Part shown: piece after piece, positions 27,188 through 40,206 of the stretch
How positions within the stretch are numbered: the first letter of the stretch is position 1
Layout of the letters: the number at the start of each line of letters is the position of its first letter
DNA from: Thermoplasmata archaeon
Lineage (GTDB): Archaea; Thermoplasmatota; Thermoplasmata; Lutacidiplasmatales; UBA184
Reading direction: 5' to 3'
Assembly: GCA_021817245.1 (NCBI GenBank)
Contig: JAKAVQ010000005.1
Location: 1 to 64,000, forward strand
Length of the DNA stretch: 64,000 nt
The notes under the pieces: generated by a model
Told to the model about the DNA's origin: nothing
Seen by the model: the letters and a program-made list of their open reading frames with translations, nothing else
Database searches by the model: none
Made by a program: the position numbers and the translations under genes

Positions 27188-27314
27188 CGCGCCCCTCCCG
27201 TCCGGATCGGACTGACGCCCACCCGGGTTATCTCTTCTGGGGGTACCGGGAACGGTGACCGGGGCGAGACCCGCCCGACGACACTCTCTTACCCGAGAGC
27301 CGAGTGGGTCCTCC

Positions 27315-28199
27315 GTGCGTCCGCACGAGTTCGCCGCCCGCGTCCATGAGCTCGCCGCCCGTCGACAGCCCTTCGCGATGGCGACCGTGGTCCGAACCGA
27401 AGGCTCCACGCTCGCGAAGCGGGGGTTCAAGCTCCTGATCTCCCACGACGGTCGGGTCGTCGGGGGTACCTTCGGTGGCGGCTGCCCGGAGGGGCCGATC
27501 GTCGAGCTCGCGCTCGCGGCGATGGCGGACGGCGAAAGCCGGGTCGTCCGGATCCACCTGGTCGATGCGGCCGACGCGCTGCGGGGAATGGCCCAGTCGC
27601 CGGACAGGGACGAGATCTTCGTCGAGACCGACTGTGGCGGGACCCTCGAGGTGCATATCGAGCCGATGCTGCCCTCCGAGCGGCTGGTCGTGGTCGGCCA
27701 GGGGGGCCGGGACGACGTCGAGGAGGCGCTCGTCCGGTTCGGTCGGGCGCTCGATTTCGAGGTGGTCGTCGTCGACCCGAATCCGCAACTCTCGGCCGAA
27801 CCGGATCGTCTGCTCCGGGCCGGGATTCCCGACCTCGCGGACCTCTCGATCGGGGAGCGGGACTCGATCGTCATCCTCACGAAAGGAGAGCGGGACGTGG
27901 CGCTCCTGACCGCGTTCGCCCGCGTTCGGCCCCGCTACGTCGGCCTGCTCGCGAGCCGACACCGGGTCGCGAAGGACCGGGAGGCGCTCGCTTCGGACGG
28001 GGTCCCCCGCGAGTTCCTCGACGCGCTCCACGCCCCGATCGGCATCGACATCGGGGCCCGGAGCCCGGCCGAGATCGCGGTCTCGATCCTGGCCGAGGTC
28101 ATCGCGATTCGGTACGGTCGCGCGCCCGGGTCGCACGGCGGTCCGACGTCGGACGGGCCGACCCACCGAGCGCCGTCCGGCCGCCCTCCGACCGCCTAA
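27315..28199 (+). CDS. XdhC/CoxI family cofactor-maturation protein
   Basis: A ~294-aa XdhC/CoxI family protein. In xanthine and CO dehydrogenase systems these bind molybdopterin cofactor and assist its sulfuration or insertion. It has an N-terminal XdhC part (EFAARVHELAARRQPFAMAT, VVRTEGSTLAKRGFKLL, GTFGGGCPEGPIV) and a C-terminal Rossmann domain (LVVVGQGGRDDVEEAL, then PIGIDIGARSPAEIAVSILAEVIAIRYG). GTG 27315 was chosen because TTAC (27289-27292) is 23-26 bases upstream; a GTG at 27255 is the alternative. It lies 4 kb from coxMSL, and a second XdhC is at 38482-40206. Confidence 0.85.
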   Translation: MRPHEFAARVHELAARRQPFAMATVVRTEGSTLAKRGFKLLISHDGRVVGGTFGGGCPEGPIVELALAAMADGESRVVRIHLVDAADALRGMAQSPDRDEIFVETDCGGTLEVHIEPMLPSERLVVVGQGGRDDVEEALVRFGRALDFEVVVVDPNPQLSAEPDRLLRAGIPDLADLSIGERDSIVILTKGERDVALLTAFARVRPRYVGLLASRHRVAKDREALASDGVPREFLDALHAPIGIDIGARSPAEIAVSILAEVIAIRYGRAPGSHGGPTSDGPTHRAPSGRPPTA

Positions 28200-28702: not shown

Positions 28703-29179
28703 TCAACCGCCGGCGCTCTCTGCTTCGAGCTGCTCGCGGGCGCGGTCGAAGAGCGAGTGGGTCTTCTTGTCGACCGTGGTCCGGAGGATCCGCTCCCCCA
28801 CCGACGCGACCGGGCCGGAGAACGTGAGCTCGCGCGACCAGCGGACCGTCGTGCCCCCGTCGCTCGGCAGGAAAGTGATCACGACGGAGGCATCGAGACC
28901 GATCCCGAGGCCGCTCCCGTGGACCTGGGCGACGATGCGGGCGGGACGGTCGAGCTCCCGGTACTCGATCGAGAGGCGGAAGGTGCCTCGGATGAACGCC
29001 ACGCCGGTCGTCACGGTTCCGGTGAAGTGGGCCGGGTCCTGCACCTCGACCGTGTGAAGGTCGTCCGAGCCGTCGAGAAGGCGTCGGGCATCGACGAACA
29101 GGTCGAACGCGGCCTCGGGGCCGCGCCGAACCTGGAACTCTCCGTCGATCTTAACTCCGGGACCCTCGCGCCGAACAAT
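28703..29179 (-). CDS. coxG: CoxG-like SRPBCC protein
   Basis: A CoxG-family protein (CO dehydrogenase subunit G, START-like/SRPBCC fold), linked in bacteria to membrane recruitment of aerobic CO dehydrogenase. Segments include VKIDGEFQVRRGPEAAFDLF, FTGTVTTGVAFIRGTFRL and DASVVITFLPSDGGTTVRW. The first canonical start, GTG at 29044, would cut off ~35 family-typical residues; upstream codons stay open to TAG at 29237-29239 but contain no ATG, GTG or TTG. I place the start at ATT 29179 as the best candidate; this is uncertain. The gene follows coxE. Confidence 0.7.
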   Translation of the reverse strand: MVRREGPGVKIDGEFQVRRGPEAAFDLFVDARRLLDGSDDLHTVEVQDPAHFTGTVTTGVAFIRGTFRLSIEYRELDRPARIVAQVHGSGLGIGLDASVVITFLPSDGGTTVRWSRELTFSGPVASVGERILRTTVDKKTHSLFDRAREQLEAESAGG

Positions 29180-29236: not shown

Positions 29237-30394
29237 CTAGCGGGGAGAGGGACGAACGGTCGTTCCGCTCCGACCTCGGTACGGGAGGGGGAAGCGCGCG
29301 GGGCTGGTCAGCAGGTCGAGCTGGGGCAGGACCGACTTCAGCGCGGCCGTCTCGGGCACGAAGTCGCGCTCCGCCGCGTGGGGGTTCACCCAGACGAGCC
29401 GACGGGCCGCCCGGCGCAGCCGCCCGACCTCGCGCGCCAGCGCCTCGGGCTCGCCGAGGTCCCAGCCGTCACTCGCGATCACAACAGTCGTGCTCGGCCG
29501 CACGAGTCCGCCCCAGTGCCGTCGGAACTCCGCGAGGCAGTGGGCGATCTGGGTACCTCCTCCCGCCCTCGGGAGTCGGACTTCGAGGTCGGGGAGCGCT
29601 CGGGGGTACGGAAGCCCGTGAAAGAGCATCGAGACCTCCTCGATCTCGTGACCGAAAGCGTAGATCCGAGTGCGAGGGATCGCACGCGCGAGCGCGTGCA
29701 GGAGAGCGAAGAGGTCGCTCGAGTGCTCGCGCATCGATCCGCTCACATCCCAGAGGACCACGAGGTCCGCCCTCCGGGGGGCCCGGCGCCGACGGACGAG
29801 CTCGACCCACTCGCCGCCCGTGCGCATCCCCCGGCGCACCGTCCGCCGAAGGTCGACGCCGCCCTCTGGGGCGTGTTCCCAGCGCCGCCCGGGCAGCGTC
29901 GCGACGTGACGGCGGAAGCGTCGCGCGGCATGACCGAGCTTTCGCAGCTCCTCGGCCGGCCGCGCGGAGATTCCGTGGTCCGACGCGGGAGCCGCCCGGC
30001 TATAGCGGCCCTCCATCGTCTCGGAGGACTCTTCCCGGTCCGGTAATCGACGGCGCGGTAGTGGAGAAGGCATCCCGGTCCGTCGCTCCCATGAGCGGGC
30101 CGCCGCGCGGCCGTCCGGCGGGGGGGAGATCGGGGGAGGAGCGGCCCCGTCCCAGTACGCGTCGAAGATCTCCTCGACCGTGCGGACCTCGGCAGGCGAC
30201 TTCGCGAGCGTCACGCGGCAGGCCGTGCGCGCGGAGGGCCGTTCGAGCAGCGGCAGGACCCGAAGCGCCGCCCCCAGGTCGACGGTTGCGCCGGTCCCGA
30301 CCGGCACTCCGTGGAGCCGGAGTTGGCCGACGAACCCTTGGAGGCGAGACAGGAACCGGGTGTCGGACACCGGTGCGTCGGCCCCGGAGCTCAT
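29237..30394 (-). CDS. coxE: CoxE-like VWA-domain protein
   Basis: A 385-aa protein of the CoxE family, which with the AAA+ protein CoxD is needed to mature the copper-sulfur-molybdenum site of CO dehydrogenase. The C-terminal von Willebrand A domain has the metal-ion-dependent adhesion site DVSGSM, the threonine in GGGTQIA and the aspartate in ASDGWD. The N-terminal ~200 residues are helical and basic. Its ATG overlaps the coxD stop (ATGA, 30391-30394), so the two are translationally coupled. Confidence 0.88.
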   Translation of the reverse strand: MSSGADAPVSDTRFLSRLQGFVGQLRLHGVPVGTGATVDLGAALRVLPLLERPSARTACRVTLAKSPAEVRTVEEIFDAYWDGAAPPPISPPPDGRAAARSWERRTGMPSPLPRRRLPDREESSETMEGRYSRAAPASDHGISARPAEELRKLGHAARRFRRHVATLPGRRWEHAPEGGVDLRRTVRRGMRTGGEWVELVRRRRAPRRADLVVLWDVSGSMREHSSDLFALLHALARAIPRTRIYAFGHEIEEVSMLFHGLPYPRALPDLEVRLPRAGGGTQIAHCLAEFRRHWGGLVRPSTTVVIASDGWDLGEPEALAREVGRLRRAARRLVWVNPHAAERDFVPETAALKSVLPQLDLLTSPARFPLPYRGRSGTTVRPSPR

Positions 30395-31296
30395 GGCGCC
30401 GTAAGGAGGGAGGCCGCCCGGTCTCCGTGGTACGTGGCGAGGTCCCGGGCGTCCTTGAGGAGGAGCCCGAGCGTCTCGGAGACCGTCCGAGCCCGCACGT
30501 TCGCCTCCCCGAGGGCCAACAGCGCGCTCGCCCAATCGAGGGTCTCGGCGACCCCGGGACGCTTCGCAAGGTCCTCCTGCCCGCGCAACCGCTGGACGAA
30601 CGTCGCGATCTCCCGAGCCAGGTGCTCCGAGAGCTCGGGCAGCCGACGCCGGAGGATCTCGACCTCCTTTTCCGGCGAGGGGTAGCCGATGTACGCGTAC
30701 AGGCACCGTCGCTTGATGGCATCCCCGAGCTCGCGCGTCCGGTTCGAGGTGAGGATGACGATCGGCACCCGTTTCGCGCGGATCGTGCCGAGCTCGGGAA
30801 CCGTGACCTGGAAGTCGGAGAGGACCTCAAGGAGCAGCCCTTCGAACTCCTCGTCGGCGCGGTCGAGCTCGTCGATCAAGAGGACCGGGGCGACCGGACC
30901 GTCCCCCTCCAGCGCGCGGAGCAGCGGGCGCCGCAGCAAAAACCGCTCGCTATAGATCTCGCTCTCCACCTCGGCCGAGGTCCGGTCGCGCTCGTGGAGA
31001 CGGATCGCTACGAGCTGCCGGGGGTAGTCCCACTCGTAGAGCGCCGCGCTGACGTCGAGGCCCTCGTAGCACTGCAGACGGATCAGGGAGGTGCCGGCCG
31101 CGGCGGCGAGCGCTTTCGCGATCTCCGTCTTCCCGCATCCGGGTTCCCCCTCGAGAAGGAGGGGCTTCTCCAGCCGGATCGCGAGGAAGACGGCCGTGGC
31201 GAGGTCCCGGTCGATGACGTACCTCTGGGAGGAGAGCGCCACCAGAAACGCGTCGACGGAGGCCGTGAACGGAAGCCCGGGACCGGCCCCGCTCAT
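30391..31296 (-). CDS. coxD: MoxR-type AAA+ ATPase (CoxD-like)
   Basis: A 301-aa MoxR-class AAA+ ATPase. Walker A is GEPGCGKTE (residues ~50-57), Walker B LLIDELDRADEEFEG, sensor 1 ILTSNRTREL, and the arginine-finger region AIKRRCLYAYIG. In the cox system CoxD works with CoxE as a chaperone for sulfuration and copper insertion at the CO dehydrogenase active site. Its ATG overlaps the moaA stop (31293-31296) and its stop overlaps coxE, so moaA-coxD-coxE form a tight unit. Confidence 0.9.
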   Translation of the reverse strand: MSGAGPGLPFTASVDAFLVALSSQRYVIDRDLATAVFLAIRLEKPLLLEGEPGCGKTEIAKALAAAAGTSLIRLQCYEGLDVSAALYEWDYPRQLVAIRLHERDRTSAEVESEIYSERFLLRRPLLRALEGDGPVAPVLLIDELDRADEEFEGLLLEVLSDFQVTVPELGTIRAKRVPIVILTSNRTRELGDAIKRRCLYAYIGYPSPEKEVEILRRRLPELSEHLAREIATFVQRLRGQEDLAKRPGVAETLDWASALLALGEANVRARTVSETLGLLLKDARDLATYHGDRAASLLTAP

Positions 31297-32267
31297 GCCC
31301 CCAGCTCGAAGGTCGGTACCGGGGCGCCGTGGGGGACCGGGAGACGGCGCGGGAACGAGGTGAGAAGGCCTCCATAGTACGGAACGCGGGTCGTGATCAC
31401 CCGGCGGAACGCCGCGCGCAGCGCATCGTCGTCCAGCCCTCGGGTCGGGACGAGGTCGTCGTTGCGATTGAGACAGCCCTTCAGCTCGCCCTTGTGGGTG
31501 ACCCGGAGGCGGTGACAGTTCGCACAGAACTCCGGATTGTAGACGGGGTCCACGACCTCCACTTCGGCCTCGCGGAAGAGGTAGACGCGACGGTGGTGCA
31601 TGTCCCGGACGAGGACCCGCGACGCGTTCGCCTCGAGCCAGCGCTTCACCGATTCGATATCGACCATCCACTCCGGATGGGTGACCAGCTCGGGCATGAA
31701 CTGGATGAGCTGAAGCTTGAGCCCTTCGGTCTGGCCGACGTAATCGATCATCCGGGGGATGTTTCCGAGCGTGGGACGGAAGACCACCATGTTGAGCTTG
31801 ACCGGCTTGAGGCCGACCCGGAGCGCTTCGCGAATACCCCGCAGCACCGGACCGAGCGACCCCTTCCGGATCGACCGGAACTGCTCGGGATCGATCGAAT
31901 CCACCGACACGTTCACACGCTTCAGGCCCGCGTCGCGCAACGCCTCGGCCCGCCCCTCCAACATCGAGCCGTTCGACGTGAGCGAGACGTCCGGGATCTG
32001 GGCGACGGTCCGTCCCACGATCTCCTCGAGGTCCAGGCGCACGAGCGGCTCGCCGCCCGTGAACTTCACCGATCGGATCCCGAACTCCCGAGCGACCCGA
32101 ACGATCCGCTCCACTTCGGCCGGGGTCATCTCTTCCCCGTGGGGGGTGCGGGGCCGCGCGACCGGGCCGAGACCCTCGTCGTGGCAGTAGACGCAGCCGA
32201 AGTTGCAGCGTTTGGTCACGCTGATGCGAATGTCGGTGACCTCGCGGCCGAAGGCGTCGGTGAGCAT
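31293..32267 (-). CDS. moaA: GTP 3',8-cyclase (molybdenum cofactor biosynthesis)
   Basis: A 324-aa radical-SAM enzyme that makes 3',8-cyclo-7,8-dihydro-GTP, the first step of molybdopterin synthesis. The N-terminal cluster is C21-NFG-C25-VY-C28; then VKFTGGEPLVRLDLEE, NVSVDSIDPEQF and the C-terminal second cluster CANCHRLRVTHKGELKGCL, diagnostic of MoaA. The start at ATG 32267 is supported by a TATA box (32293-32299) about 27 bases upstream; a longer frame reads through the promoter. It heads the operon that continues into coxD, coxE and coxG. Confidence 0.95.
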   Translation of the reverse strand: MLTDAFGREVTDIRISVTKRCNFGCVYCHDEGLGPVARPRTPHGEEMTPAEVERIVRVAREFGIRSVKFTGGEPLVRLDLEEIVGRTVAQIPDVSLTSNGSMLEGRAEALRDAGLKRVNVSVDSIDPEQFRSIRKGSLGPVLRGIREALRVGLKPVKLNMVVFRPTLGNIPRMIDYVGQTEGLKLQLIQFMPELVTHPEWMVDIESVKRWLEANASRVLVRDMHHRRVYLFREAEVEVVDPVYNPEFCANCHRLRVTHKGELKGCLNRNDDLVPTRGLDDDALRAAFRRVITTRVPYYGGLLTSFPRRLPVPHGAPVPTFELGA

Positions 32268-32292
32268 CGGCGACAGGACATCATCCGCCTCC

Positions 32293-32423: not shown

Positions 32424-33299
32424 ATGATCCCGCCCGAGTTCGAGTACTATGCCCCCCACAGCGTGGACGAAGCGGTCTCCCTCCTCCGCCGGTTCGACGG
32501 AGAGGCGAAGGTCCTCGCGGGGGGGCACAGCCTGATCCCGCTGATGAAGCTCCGCCTGGCCCAACCCCGGGCGCTGGTCGACATCAACCGCATCCCGAAC
32601 CTGGCGTACATCCGCGAGGAGGGGGGGCACCTCAAGATCGGGGCGATCACGCGGACGGGGGAGCTGCTCGACTCGCCGCTGCTCCGCAAGTCCTACCCGA
32701 TCCTGACCGACGCCGCGCAGGAGATCGCCGACCCGCTCGTCCGGAATCTCGGCACCGTCGGCGGGAACGTCTGCCATGGCGATCCGGGCAACGATCTACC
32801 GGCCTGCATGCTCGCGCTCGGCGCGGAGGTCGTGGCGGAGGGTCCGAAGGGTCCGAGGACGCTTGCGGTCTCGGACTTCTACCGCGACACGTTCGTGACG
32901 GCGCTCGAACCGACCGAGATCGTGGTCGAGGTGCGGATCCCCAAGGTACGCCCCCATCAGGGAAACGCCTACCACAAGATCGAGAAGCGAGCCGGCGATT
33001 TCGCGATGGCCGGCGCCGCGGCCAACCTCATCCTCGATGGCTCGGGTCGCGTCGAATCCGCCGGCGTCGCCCTCACCGGGGTCGGTCCCACGGCCATCCT
33101 CGCGCGACCGGTGGCAGGAGCACTGGTCGGCCAGGCCCCGGATCCCTCCCGCCTCGCGCACGCGGCCGGTCTCGCCGAATCGGTCGCCGAGCCGAGTACC
33201 GACCTCCGGGGCCCGATCGAGTACAAGCGGGCCATGGCCTCGGTGCTCACCCGGAGGGTGCTCGAGCGCGCGCTGGCCCGGGCGAAGGGAGGAGGCTGA
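32424..33299 (+). CDS. coxM: aerobic CO dehydrogenase medium (FAD) subunit
   Basis: The 291-aa flavoprotein subunit of aerobic carbon monoxide dehydrogenase. It passes electrons from the Fe-S clusters to the quinone pool. The FAD-binding motifs are [17 protein letters not shown] near the N-terminus and [18 protein letters not shown] in the middle, plus [17 protein letters not shown]. Its stop overlaps the coxS start by one base (TGATG at 33297-33301). The order M-S-L is that of the classic cox clusters. Confidence 0.95.
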
Positions 33300-33850
33300 T
33301 GTCCGCGAGCGCGCGCCCCGTCGCGCCGGCCGCCTCCGTCACCTCCGGCGGGCGATCGATGCGCGTCGAGCTGACGGTGAACGGCGCACCGGTGGTCGCG
33401 GAGGTCGAGCCCCGTACCCTGCTCGTGCATTTCCTGCGGGAGGTCCTCGGCCTGACGGGGACCCACATCGGTTGCGACACCTCGAACTGCGGCGCGTGCA
33501 CGGTGCATCTCGACGGCAAGCCGGTCAAGTCCTGTACCGTGCTCGCGGTCCAGGTGAGCGGCCGGCAGGTTCGCACGGTCGAGGGCCTCGAGATCGGTGG
33601 GAAGCTCTCGCCGGTCCAGGAGGCGTTCGTCGAGGCCCACGGGCTGCAGTGCGGGTTCTGCACCCCCGGCATGATGATGACCGCGACCGAGCTGCTCTCG
33701 CGGAACCCGAACCCCTCCGAGCCGGAGGTACGGGACGCTATCCGGGGCAACCTGTGCCGGTGCACCGGCTACGTGAACATCGTGAAGGCGATCCAGCTCG
33801 CCGGTGCGAAGATACGGTCGGCCGCCCCGTCATCGGGAGGGAAGGCATGA
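33299..33850 (+). CDS. coxS: aerobic CO dehydrogenase small (2Fe-2S) subunit
   Basis: The 183-aa iron-sulfur subunit with two [2Fe-2S] clusters. The plant-ferredoxin-type site is [18 protein letters not shown] with a fourth cysteine in KSC, and the C-terminal alpha-helical site is [16 protein letters not shown] with [10 protein letters not shown]. The first ~20 residues are a low-complexity extension before MRVELTVNG; translation could begin there, but the TGATG overlap favours 33299. Its stop overlaps coxL in ATGA. Confidence 0.95.
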
Positions 33851-36201
33851 GCGCGGACGTGCCCCGCGTGAAGGGGGGCCTCGGCCAGTCGATCCTTCGC
33901 AAGGAGGACCAGCGGTTCATCCGGGGGAAAGGCAACTACGTCGACGACATCAAACTCCCCGGAATGCTCTACCTTGACATCGCCCGAAGCCCGTACGCCC
34001 ACGCGAAGATCACGGCGATCCACACCGAGAACACGCTCAAGGTACCGGGCGTCCTCGCGGTCGTCACCGGCAAGGACCTCGAGGCGGCCGGCCTCGCGTG
34101 GATGCCGACCCTGATGTCGGACAAGCAGATGGTCCTTCCCACGGACACGGTGATGTACCAGGCGCAGGAGGTCGCGGCGGTCGTCGCCGACAGTCGCTAC
34201 GCGGCCGCCGACGGGGTCGCCGCGCTCGAGGTCGACTACGATCCGCTCCCGGTCGTCGTGGACCCCTTCAAGGCGCTCGAACCCGGCGCCCCGGTGATCC
34301 GGACCGACCGTAAGGAGAAATCGAACCATATCTGGCACTGGGAGACGGGGGACAGGGCTGGCACCGACGCGGCGTTCGACGGCGCGGAGGTCCAGGTCGC
34401 GCAGGACCTGTACATCCCCCGGATCCACGTCTCGTCGATGGAGACGTGCGGCTGCATCGCACACATGGACAGCGTGAACGGGCGGTTCACGATCTACATG
34501 ACCACGCAGGCGCCGCATGCGATCCGCACGGTCATCGCGCTGGTGACGGGACTGCCGGAGCAGAACATCCGGGTCGTCTCGCCCGACATCGGCGGGGGAT
34601 TTGGCGGGAAGGTCCCGGTGTATCCCGGCTACGTGCTGGCCGCGGTCGCATCGATCAAAACGGGCCACCCGGTGAAGTGGATCGAGGACCGTTCGGAGAA
34701 CCTGCAGGCCGACTCGTTCGCGCGGGACTACCACATCCACGCCGAGCTGGCGGCCTCGAACGACGGGAAGGTCGCGGCGTTGCGGGTCAAGACGCTCGCG
34801 GACCACGGGTACACCGACGCGGCGGCGAACCCGTCGAAGTTCCCGGCGGGCCTCTTCCACATCATCACCGGGAGCTACCCGTTCGCGAAGGCGTTCGTCG
34901 AGGTCGACGCCGCGTACACGAACAAGCCGCCCGGTGGGATCGCCTACCGGTGTTCGTTCCGGGTGACCGAAGCGGTCTACACGATCGAGCGGATGATGGA
35001 CATCCTCGCCCACCGCCTGAAGGTCGACCCGGCCGAGCTGCGCCTGAAGAACTTCATCCCGCCCGAGGCGTTCCCGTTCACGTCGGCGCTCGGCTGGACC
35101 TACGACAGCGGCAACTACGCGGGGGCGCTCCGCAAAGCGATGGAGATCATCGACTACGCCGGCCTTCGGCGGGAGCAGAAGGAGAAGCGCGGCCGGGGGG
35201 AGCTCATGGGGATCGGGATCTCGAGCTTTACCGAGATCGTGGGCGCGGGACCGTCCTCCACCTTCGACATCCTCGGCATCAAGATGTTCGACTCGGCCGA
35301 AGTACGGATCCATCCGACCGGCAAGGTGATCGCGCGTTTCGGCACGAAATCCCAGGGGCAGGGTCACGAGACCACGTACGCCCAGATCCTGGCCGAGGAG
35401 CTCGGCATCCCGGCGGACGACATCCGGGTGGAGGAAGGGGACACCGATACGGCGCCGTACGGGCTCGGCACCTACGCGAGCCGGAGCACCCCCACCGCGG
35501 GGGCGGCGGCATCGATGGCCGCCCGGAAGATCCGGGACAAGGCACGTCGGATCGCGGCCCATCTGCTGGAGGTGAACCCGGACGACGTCGAGTGGAAGGA
35601 CTACGCCTTCCGGGTGAAGGGGGTTCCGGCGAAGTCCAAGACGATGCAGGAGGTGGCGTTCGCGGCCTACACCAACCACCCTCCCGGCATGGAGGCGGGC
35701 CTCGAGGCGGTCGACTACTACGACCCACCGAACATGACCTACCCGTTCGGGAGCTACATCTGCGTCGTGGACATCGACCCGGAGACCGGGCAGGTGAAGG
35801 TCCGGCGGTTCGTCGCGGTCGACGACTGTGGCACGATCATCAACCCGATGATCGTGGATGGGCAGATCCACGGGGGCCTCACGATGGGCCTTGCGCCCGC
35901 GCTCTACGAGGAGATCCAGTACGATGAGAGCGGGAACATCCACGGAGGGACGTTCATGGACTATCTGGTCCCGACCGCGATCGAGACGCCCCACTGGGAG
36001 ACGGCCAAGACCGTGACCCCGAGCCCTCACCACCCGATCGGCGCGAAGGGGGTGGGAGAGTCGGCCACCGTCGGCGCCCCGCCGGCCGTGGTGAACGCGA
36101 TCGTCGACGCGCTCCAGCCGTACGGGGTCGAGCATATCGACATCCCGGTCCACCCGTGGAAGATCTGGCAGATCCTCCACACGAGGACGCCGACCTTCTG
36201 A
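33847..36201 (+). CDS. coxL: aerobic CO dehydrogenase large (Mo) subunit, form I
   Basis: The 784-aa catalytic subunit that oxidises CO to CO2 at a Cu-S-Mo(molybdopterin cytosine dinucleotide) centre. The active-site loop reads A366-Y-R-C369-S-F-R372, the form I (true CO dehydrogenase) signature; form II has AYRGAGR there. Cys369 should bind copper. The pterin-binding GGGFGGK (~249-255) and the active-site glutamate 738 in GAKGVGES are also present. Length is usual for CoxL. The ATG overlaps coxS in ATGA. It gives the cell capacity to use CO as an electron donor. Confidence 0.97.
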
Positions 36202-38481: not shown

Positions 38482-40206
38482 CTAGCGGACGAACGCCGCC
38501 GGTTCCGCTTCGAATCGCTCCAGGCAGCTCTCCGAGCAGAAGTAGTAGGTCGCCCCGTCGTAGGTCGACCGCAAGGGCGTCGATGCGGGATCGACCTCCA
38601 TCTGGCAGACGGGATCGATGGATGCCGGGGGGTGGGAGCCGTGCCCGGCCGCTCCACCGGCCGCCGACGGATTCGGCCGCGTCGAGCGGCGCTCGCGGAC
38701 GATCTCGGCGGCGACGCTCAGCGCGATCTCTTCGGGGGTCTGGGCGGCCAGGTCCAGCCCCGCCGGGCTCTTCAGCCGAAGAATCCGCTCTTCCGCCACG
38801 CCCCGTCCCCGGAGCTCTTCCCGGAGGCGTTCCGCGCGCCGTCGGCTGGCGACGAGGGCGACGTACGGGGCCGGCGAGCGGAGCAGGACCTCAAGACCCA
38901 TCGCATCGTAGCTCGCCATCGTCGCGACGACCCCGTACGACGTGCGGTCGAGTTTGGCCCCGAGCTCGGAGAGGTCCTCCGCGATTTCGTCCGCGTCCGG
39001 GAACCGACTCGGCTCGATCCCCGGTCCGGCCACCACGACCCGCAGCCCGAGCAGCCGGCCCAGCGAGGAGAGGGCTTCGGCCACCGGCGAGTCTCCGATC
39101 ACGACGAGCTGGGGCGCGGGTCCGTGCGGTTCTAGGTAGATCTCCATCGATCCTCCACTGTCACATTCCAGGACCCGGTCGACCGTTCCGGCTTCGGAGG
39201 GGGGTCGTGCCTCCGTTCCGGGCCGCAGACGGAGCACGCGGGGAACGCCGTCTTCGAGCGCGGCGCGCGCCTCCGACAGCAACGCGTGGCGGGAACAGCT
39301 GCCCCCGATCCACCCGACCACCGAACCGTCGGCTCGGACGAGCGCCTTCGATCCCGGCTTGCCCGAGGTCGGGGCACGGACGTGGGTGACGACCGCGAGG
39401 CAGTACGGCTCCCGGCGTCGCTCCAGCTCGACGGCGACCGCGAGCACGTCGGGCCGGGCTCGGGTCCGGACCCGCGGTCCGGTCGGAGCGGTCGCGAGCG
39501 GGTTCCGGGCGGCGAGGAACCGGGGCGCGAGGCGGGCAAGAGTGCCTCCCTGCTTCAAGTGCTCGGCGGCAACGGAAAGCTCCTCGGGCGTGTCGAGGTC
39601 GATGATGACCCCCGGATCGTCGACCGGAACCTCGCGGGTCTCCTCCGGGTGGCTCAGCCGGAGCGCGCGGCACCCCTGGTCGCCGGTGATCCGGTCCACC
39701 TCGTTCGCGAGGCTCCGGTCGATCAGCACGGGGTTGCCGCGCACTCCCTCGTACACCGGCAGCACGATCCGCGCTCCTCCGCGCTCGTACGCCGCGATCA
39801 GCGCATCGATGGTCGACGTCCGCACGAACGGCGCATCTCCCAGGACCACGAGGAACGCGCGGGCTTCGGGGGAGAGCGCCCCCACCCCGGCGCGGAGCGA
39901 GGTGCTCATGCCTTCCGGGTACGCGGCGTTCACCACGACCCGGACCCGGTCGACCGGCAGCGCTGCGCGGACGCGGTCCGCATCGGCTCCTAGCACGACG
40001 ATCGTCTCGTTGACCCGGGCGCCCCGGAGCGCCTCGAGGACCCATTCGAGGAGTGCCCGGTCCCCAAGCCGGACGAGAGGCTTCGGCCGACCCATGCGCG
40101 TCGATTGGCCCGCCGCGAGCACCAGCGCACTGATCTTCTCTCCTCCGGACCCGGAGGGCGGCCCGCCGTTGCCGCCACGGCCACCCTCCTCCGCCCCCGG
40201 GGGCAT
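38482..40206 (-). CDS. MobA-like nucleotidyltransferase / XdhC / YHS triple fusion
   Basis: A 574-aa three-domain protein. Residues ~24-215 are a MobA/MocA-type nucleotidyltransferase (ALVLAAGQSTRMGRPKPLVR, VVLGDAPFV), which would join CMP to molybdopterin to make the cytosine dinucleotide form used by CO dehydrogenase. Residues ~250-505 are XdhC/CoxI (GWIGGSCSRHALLSEA, QLVVIGDSPVAEALSSLGRL, DLAAQTPEEIALSVAAEIV). The last ~45 residues are a YHS domain (DPVCQMEVDP, FCSESCLERFE), a cysteine-based metal-binding module. The combination points to cofactor tailoring plus metal handling for CoxL. The start lies at 40206. Confidence 0.85.
   Translation of the reverse strand: MPPGAEEGGRGGNGGPPSGSGGEKISALVLAAGQSTRMGRPKPLVRLGDRALLEWVLEALRGARVNETIVVLGADADRVRAALPVDRVRVVVNAAYPEGMSTSLRAGVGALSPEARAFLVVLGDAPFVRTSTIDALIAAYERGGARIVLPVYEGVRGNPVLIDRSLANEVDRITGDQGCRALRLSHPEETREVPVDDPGVIIDLDTPEELSVAAEHLKQGGTLARLAPRFLAARNPLATAPTGPRVRTRARPDVLAVAVELERRREPYCLAVVTHVRAPTSGKPGSKALVRADGSVVGWIGGSCSRHALLSEARAALEDGVPRVLRLRPGTEARPPSEAGTVDRVLECDSGGSMEIYLEPHGPAPQLVVIGDSPVAEALSSLGRLLGLRVVVAGPGIEPSRFPDADEIAEDLSELGAKLDRTSYGVVATMASYDAMGLEVLLRSPAPYVALVASRRRAERLREELRGRGVAEERILRLKSPAGLDLAAQTPEEIALSVAAEIVRERRSTRPNPSAAGGAAGHGSHPPASIDPVCQMEVDPASTPLRSTYDGATYYFCSESCLERFEAEPAAFVR

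Follow-up and report, generated by a model that had tools for sequence, protein, structure and literature searches.

We analyzed a 64,000-nucleotide stretch of archaeal DNA (positions 1 to 64,000 of contig JAKAVQ010000005.1, assembly GCA_021817245.1; hereafter, the window), in which a coxMSL cluster at positions 32424 to 36201 is predicted to encode a form I aerobic carbon monoxide (CO) dehydrogenase with a molybdenum-copper (MoCu) active site. We consider it very probable that this is the enzyme of a soil archaeon of the order Lutacidiplasmatales, that the oxidation of CO feeds respiration, and that the cluster was obtained from bacteria.

Soil is a sink for atmospheric CO, and the aerobic CO oxidizers in the literature examined belong to the bacteria, the haloarchaea, and the Sulfolobales. 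A complete form I gene set in an order of acid-soil archaea marks a candidate archaeal CO oxidizer of ordinary soils; the position of its enzyme apart from that of haloarchaea suggests that the trait has crossed between domains more than once, and a fused helper protein encoded nearby, which co-occurs with form I CO dehydrogenase throughout the family, is a candidate for copper delivery to the Cu-S-Mo center.

The coxMSL operon and its active site

The structural genes and the active-site loop are as follows.

32424..33299, + strand: coxM, flavin adenine dinucleotide (FAD) subunit, 291 amino acids (FAD_binding_5 and CO_deh_flav_C domains)
33299..33850, + strand: coxS, 2Fe-2S subunit, 183 amino acids (domain profiles; best solved match, 8uem chain C)
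33847..36201, + strand: coxL, molybdenum-copper subunit of form I CO dehydrogenase, 784 amino acids (TIGR02416 and tree)
34942..34962, + strand: AYRCSFR active-site loop, CoxL residues 366 to 372 (aligned to Afipia CoxL)

A sequence-only reading of the window, made without database searches, had described a complete coxMSL cluster between 32424 and 36201, with intact motifs in the FAD, 2Fe-2S, and Mo subunits. Its coordinates are exact, and all three reading frames are intact and overlap in the manner of an operon (the coxS ATG at 33299 overlaps the coxM stop, and the coxL ATG at 33847 overlaps the coxS stop). The motifs are likewise in place: by reading and by alignment to solved CO dehydrogenase chains, CoxS keeps the eight cysteines of two 2Fe-2S sites and CoxM keeps the stretches AGGHS and TVGGN, which we take to be its FAD loops. 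With the CoxL loop also present, the three subunits are encoded together and with intact cofactor motifs, as befits a form I enzyme. The best solved-structure matches of CoxM and CoxS are both CO dehydrogenases (CutM, at 279 bits, and the 8uem entry, respectively), and identities to the counterparts in Afipia (Oligotropha) carboxidovorans are 45% for CoxM, 63% over 153 amino acids for CoxS, and 60.6% for CoxL.

CoxL scores 1249 bits against the NCBIfam CO dehydrogenase family TIGR02416, 258 bits above the cutoff of 991, and falls below the cutoff of all twelve other families listed. Against four distinct solved CO dehydrogenase sequences (1n5w and 1zxi being nearly identical) it scores about 1060 bits each, and the next solved enzyme, quinoline 2-oxidoreductase, reaches 485 bits; chance resemblance is therefore excluded. 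Gln221 and Glu738 of CoxL align with Gln240 and Glu763 of Afipia CoxL, positions that presumably have functional roles. Alignment also confirms the AYRCSFR loop that the earlier reading had placed at residues 366 to 372, with Cys369 aligned to Cys388 of the Afipia protein, a ligand of the copper (PMC4240915). The loop, Cu-ligand cysteine included, agrees with the form I motif (A/S)YxCS(F/L)R (PMC13240472, PMC11018855); CoxL has neither the AYRGAGR motif of form II nor a place in the form II clade, and the cysteine is missing from the form II rows.

The CoxL tree with form I and form II references that the sequence-only reading had called for was built by maximum likelihood from 45 rows (41 form I and 4 form II, with a single haloarchaeal row and without Sulfolobales). 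The branch between the two forms has 100/100 support and places the window CoxL inside form I; the form I branch is also supported (100) in a quicker tree (59 rows; imperfect outgroup).

Two features of the proteins count against this assignment. The first is that the top NCBIfam scores of CoxM and CoxS belong to glyceraldehyde dehydrogenase subunits, which, together with two CoxL paralogues elsewhere in the genome that have Ala in place of the Cu-ligand cysteine (L002 and L003, on contigs C7 and C24; about 28% identical to CoxL), would suit a form II-like or glyceraldehyde dehydrogenase-like hydroxylase of the xanthine oxidase family that acts on another substrate and is a CO dehydrogenase in looks alone. 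The glyceraldehyde dehydrogenase scores, however, are all below cutoff (NF041018, NF041019, and NF041020 at 622 versus 790, 287 versus 350, and 245 versus 290 bits), and we regard such a hydroxylase as highly improbable given the family scores of CoxL, its Cu-ligand cysteine, and the fully supported form I branch. The second is Ala544 of CoxL, at the position of Afipia Gly569. Ala occupies this position in 97 of 103 form I rows (six duplicate pairs counted), the megaplasmid copy of Thermomicrobium roseum included; since it is usual across the form I group, Ala544 is not a defect of this gene. The sequence evidence thus supports the assignment of coxMSL to a form I aerobic MoCu CO dehydrogenase, which would oxidize CO.

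Host, distribution, and origin of the cluster

The host belongs to the Lutacidiplasmatales (phylum Thermoplasmatota), as established by genome kinship: it is of the genus of metagenome-assembled genome (MAG) AcS1-67 (locus L010) and of the family of SubAcS15-31 (locus L063), both listed as Lutacidiplasmatales in Table 1 of PMC9287336. This kinship rests on the CoxL of L010 and L063 being identical in contig, coordinates, and score to those of genomes G409 (same genus) and G472 (same family) rather than on a marker-gene tree, and it bears out the earlier suggestion of a Thermoplasmatota-like host. The genome comprises 2.31 Mb in 31 contigs and is 92.9% complete and 4.0% contaminated; the guanine-plus-cytosine content of the window is 65 to 73% in 2-kb steps.

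Form I CoxL is patchy within the family, even among near-complete genomes. It occurs in 14 of the 78 genomes of the genus and in 20 of the 103 of the family, where it is confined to two of seven genera (the motif was read in these copies), and in 7 of the 36 family genomes that are at least 90% complete and at most 5% contaminated. A sample of 389 genomes from the phylum yielded seven CoxL matches at E<=1e-100, three with at least 80% identity, all from this genus, and four with at most 44%. Two genomes of the family hold a pair of CoxL genes: G441 (contigs C73 and C282) has copies of both sub-clades, at 90% and 78% identity, and G435 (contigs C82 and C5) has one of form I and one of form II (AYRGAGR, L128).

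In the tree, the 20 Thermoplasmatota rows form a single clade (100/100) nested among bacterial form I sequences from Chloroflexota, Bacteroidota, Gemmatimonadota, and other groups. Next to this clade stand L011 and L012, both from soil Chloroflexota (92/98, not starred), whose CoxL proteins, at 78 to 79% identity, are the closest non-archaeal relatives of the window CoxL; each of these genomes also has a second homologue at 45 to 46%, and the genes beside cox in L012 look bacterial by eye. Such relatives, and the contamination of the bin (4%), would be expected if the cluster were a bacterial contig mis-binned into an archaeal genome. We reject this explanation, which is largely refuted and has next to no probability left, on account of family-wide distribution, long contigs, and common gene order: CoxL orthologues of 75 to 91% identity are present in 19 other genomes of the family, the L063 copy lies on a contig of 670,516 bases in a genome made up of just five contigs (PMC9287336, Table 1), the MoaA of the cluster is of the archaeal type, and the order from coxE to an ATP-binding cassette (ABC) transporter is common to the window, L007, and L008.

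The haloarchaeal row lies deeper in the tree, apart from the Thermoplasmatota, and an approximately unbiased test rejects the two as one clade (p=1.4e-6, with one haloarchaeal row). Gene transfer from bacteria would account for the cluster, independently of the enzyme of haloarchaea. What weighs against naming a source is that a different Chloroflexota sister set is not rejected (p=0.158), and the nearest bacterial donor is therefore not fixed. In the CoxL tree the genus of the window is split, yet a single clade is not rejected either (p=0.119), so whether CoxL inheritance follows the genus is not settled. A viral carrier was also considered and rejected, 13 pattern matches in viral contigs having yielded zero relatives.

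The sequence-only reading had called such genes rarely described in Thermoplasmatota; they are indeed rare, although not absent, as a 2026 marine survey reports two form I CoxL from this phylum (PMC13240472). A floodplain study describes coxMSL in Thermoplasmata MAGs, the form not being named (PMC11264602), and a peat study lists 56 UBA184 genomes and CO oxidation in 177 MAGs, the two not being linked in the text available (PMC10250450). The terms "carbon monoxide" and "CO dehydrogenase" are absent from the main text of the Lutacidiplasmatales paper (PMC9287336, supplements aside), and the accessible literature on Lutacidiplasmatales or UBA184 with carbon monoxide yielded no account of form I CoxL from the Lutacidiplasmatales. 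A form I enzyme in Thermoplasmatota is by itself no novelty; its occurrence in this order, its extent there, and the fusion described below appear to be undescribed in the searchable literature.

Maturation genes and the MocA-XdhC-YHS fusion

Flanking coxMSL are the following genes.

31293..32279, - strand: moaA, archaeal-type GTP 3',8-cyclase (molybdenum cofactor biosynthesis), divergent from coxM (TIGR02668, 346 bits, cutoff 325)
30391..31296, - strand: coxD-like AAA+ ATPase, putative maturation role (58% identical to Afipia CoxD over 263 amino acids)
29237..30391, - strand: coxE-like VWA protein, putative maturation role (VWA_CoxE, 155 bits; 30% identical to Afipia CoxE)
28703..29155, - strand: coxG-like SRPBCC protein, proposed membrane/quinone link (COXG, 68 bits; 20% identical to Afipia CoxG)
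27255..28199, + strand: second XdhC-family protein, without a metal-binding tail (XdhC domain profiles)
38482..40206, - strand: MocA-XdhC/CoxF-YHS fusion, 574 amino acids, candidate cofactor and copper maturase (domain profiles)

Homologues of CoxD, CoxE, and CoxF thus lie near the structural genes, as expected of form I, even if the CoxE homologue is distant; the CoxF part of the fusion is 40% identical to Afipia CoxF, and the gene set agrees with the annotated cox cluster of plasmid pHCG3. moaA is also present in cox loci L007, L008, L010, L013, L063, and L067. Beyond the coxE-ABC transporter stretch, whose order is identical in the window, L007, and L008, the block to its left is inverted in L007 and L008, with coxG not seen there; L067 matches the left half of the window order as far as its contig extends, and L010, L013, and L063 have a rearranged cox set with coxG behind coxL. 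These two gene orders (L007/L008/L067 versus L010/L013/L063) track the two CoxL sub-clades in the loci compared.

The least secure member of the set is coxG, and it tells against a fully functional cluster. Its start position reads GTT, in place of the ATG of L067, L013, L063, and L014 or the GTG of L010; the frame is open, and the next in-frame ATG, GTG, or TTG is at 29044, 37 codons inside. The gene is the sole CoxG match in the genome, and no CoxG was detected in the L007 and L008 loci within the sequence covered at the threshold used. The GTT may stem from a true loss, from use of an uncommon start codon, or from a miscalled base in the assembly. Should it be a loss, the enzyme could be a true form I CO dehydrogenase whose coupling is poor, or which is in decay, in this genome, an explanation to which we give little credence: all other cox frames are intact, and coxG mutants of O. 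carboxidovorans remain able to use CO, although they grow more slowly (PMC4240915).

The fusion joins a MocA (MobA-like) nucleotidyltransferase, an XdhC/CoxF part, and a metal-binding YHS domain in one polypeptide. Its middle part carries the XdhC_CoxI and XdhC_C domains of CoxF-type proteins; the copper role of CoxF comes from mutants of O. carboxidovorans (PMC4240915), whose own CoxF shows no YHS domain. Scores of the transferase part are all below cutoff (155 bits against TIGR03310, cutoff 186; 51 against TIGR02665, cutoff 152; and, as the best, 171 against NF045665, cutoff 315), and on this basis it looks more MocA-like than MobA-like. Cysteines C534, C557, and C561 are invariant across 7 aligned sequences. 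An AlphaFold model from 7 sequences (mean predicted local distance difference test score, 74.8; predicted template-modeling score, 0.41) is useful within domains and not for domain arrangement; among the 50 Foldseek matches listed, the best, judged by their names, are XdhC-like (2we7 and 2we8) and MocA-like (2wee), with none on the YHS part.

XdhC-family open reading frames were examined in 87 loci (the window, L007 to L086, and six reference loci), a summed score of at least 200 bits being taken as strong. Strong XdhC occurs in 71 loci, and by motif 64 of these have one XdhC protein with a YHS-like tail. The seven that do not are L018 and L060, where XdhC ends at the edge of the locus; L067, whose sequence covers just the other XdhC; and L020, L098 (Afipia), L036, and L046. 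A Pfam test of ten XdhC proteins found YHS in eight, the heavy-metal domain HMA in L020, and neither in Afipia CoxF; the HMA tail, in place of YHS, lies on the XdhC at L020:6018-7079, in a form I cox locus of a Rhodothermaceae MAG. No YHS tail was found on the further XdhC proteins of these loci, nor on the XdhC nearest form II coxL in the two loci L055 and L071. The complete MocA-XdhC-YHS chain is present in all seven Thermoplasmata loci with sequence across this gene, the window included, and in none of the others among the 87. One open frame in L011 (8426-10219) has a partial XdhC followed by a MocA-like part, an order opposite to that of the fusion, and no YHS. The Rossmann match in this frame ends at 49 of 125 positions; the frame may be two genes that share it and was left out of the fusion count.

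Presence of the fusion follows that of CoxL across the 103 family genomes, where full-length matches span query positions 9-26 to 572-574 at 45 to 64% identity (own genome aside). Such matches occur in 18 of the 20 genomes with form I CoxL versus 2 of the 83 others (G431 and G448, 65 to 66% complete). G441 and G476 have CoxL and no full match, and G426 and G447 have partial matches and no CoxL. The association is strong (Fisher p=6e-16, or 2e-14 if partial matches count as full), although these values overstate independence because the family genomes are related; among genomes at least 90% complete, the fusion is in 7 of 7 with form I CoxL versus 0 of 29 without.

As a tentative model, which we hold to be possible but somewhat short of probable, the fusion would be a one-chain form I maturase of Lutacidiplasmatales, in which MocA adds cytidine monophosphate to the molybdenum cofactor, the CoxF/XdhC part binds either this cofactor in its sulfurated form or the apoenzyme, and the YHS domain at the C terminus brings copper to the Cu-S-Mo center. 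The YHS tail would then be a built-in copper carrier of the wider form I group, bacterial and archaeal, that surrounds these sequences, with a CopZ-like HMA domain taking its place in a single Rhodothermaceae genome. We propose a copper role for the tail from that of CoxF, the HMA replacement in L020, and co-occurrence with CoxL; that the fusion couples cofactor completion to copper loading is suggested, without proof, and a literature search found no work joining the YHS domain and XdhC.

Physiological role and comparison with known systems

The proposed mechanism starts with CO binding at the Cu-S-Mo center held by Cys369 of CoxL, where it would be oxidized with water to CO2. Two electrons would pass through the 2Fe-2S centers of CoxS and the FAD of CoxM to the quinone pool, a step that CoxG probably assists, and from there to a haem-copper oxidase. 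Synthesis of the cytosine-dinucleotide cofactor may draw on MoaA and on the MocA part of the fusion, and CoxD, CoxE, and the CoxF part may assemble the Cu-S-Mo center. In O. carboxidovorans, CoxD is considered necessary for the sulfuration step, CoxE and CoxF are considered necessary for inserting copper, and CoxG is not considered part of metal-center assembly (PMC4240915); CoxG is elsewhere cited as a quinone-binding link (PMC13240472).

The genome encodes haem-copper oxidase subunit I (COX1), and the large subunit of ribulose-1,5-bisphosphate carboxylase/oxygenase was not found in it at 92.9% completeness (other carbon-fixation routes not having been searched), which together argue for a respiration-linked and probably supplementary oxidation of CO. 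The benefit would be extra energy, most likely from trace CO in starvation, rather than CO-based autotrophy. We think it unlikely that the enzyme supports growth on CO as a source of both carbon and energy or serves mainly in CO protection, in view of the carboxylase not found and of relatives with activity data, in which CO dehydrogenase is increased or maintained during stationary phase (PMC11018855, PMC6776052). Energy scavenging has a precedent in Thermomicrobium roseum, which takes up CO to below the atmospheric level (PMC6776052) and whose megaplasmid CoxL is 72% identical to that of the window. This parallel is weakened by the assignment of the T. roseum activity to the operon trd_1206-1208, which may not be the megaplasmid copy (PMC6776052). 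A search for [NiFe] hydrogenase returned short pieces only; in the window's own genome, C6:106475-107620 has matches at both ends of one frame, whose product could be a complex I or small hydrogenase subunit.

The window resembles the cluster of Afipia (Oligotropha) carboxidovorans OM5 on pHCG3 (1N5W) in the MSL gene order, in the AYRCSFR loop, and in having homologues of CoxD, CoxE, CoxF, and CoxG nearby. It differs from that cluster in the divergent orientation of coxDE and moaA relative to coxMSL, in the fusion of CoxF to MocA and YHS, in the replacement of Gly569 by Ala, and in its archaeal host.

Closer counterparts are found in the mixed bacterial clade that surrounds the window CoxL in the tree (Chloroflexota, Bacteroidota, Gemmatimonadota, and others, with Thermomicrobium roseum), with CoxL identities of 69 to 79% among the best 80 loci, a YHS-tailed XdhC in most of the loci that hold XdhC, and Ala at the Gly569 position; unlike the window, no MocA-XdhC-YHS chain was found in the loci of these bacteria. 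Among archaea, the Natronorubrum bangense plasmid, representing the haloarchaea, shares the AYRCSFR loop and an XdhC-YHS gene adjoining coxL, whereas its CoxL, the single haloarchaeal sequence compared, is 57% identical and takes a separate, deeper position in the tree. Acidianus brierleyi (Sulfolobales), compared by description only, differs in its operon order, coxEDLSMF, but likewise has an archaeal form I enzyme, and its cultures consume CO.

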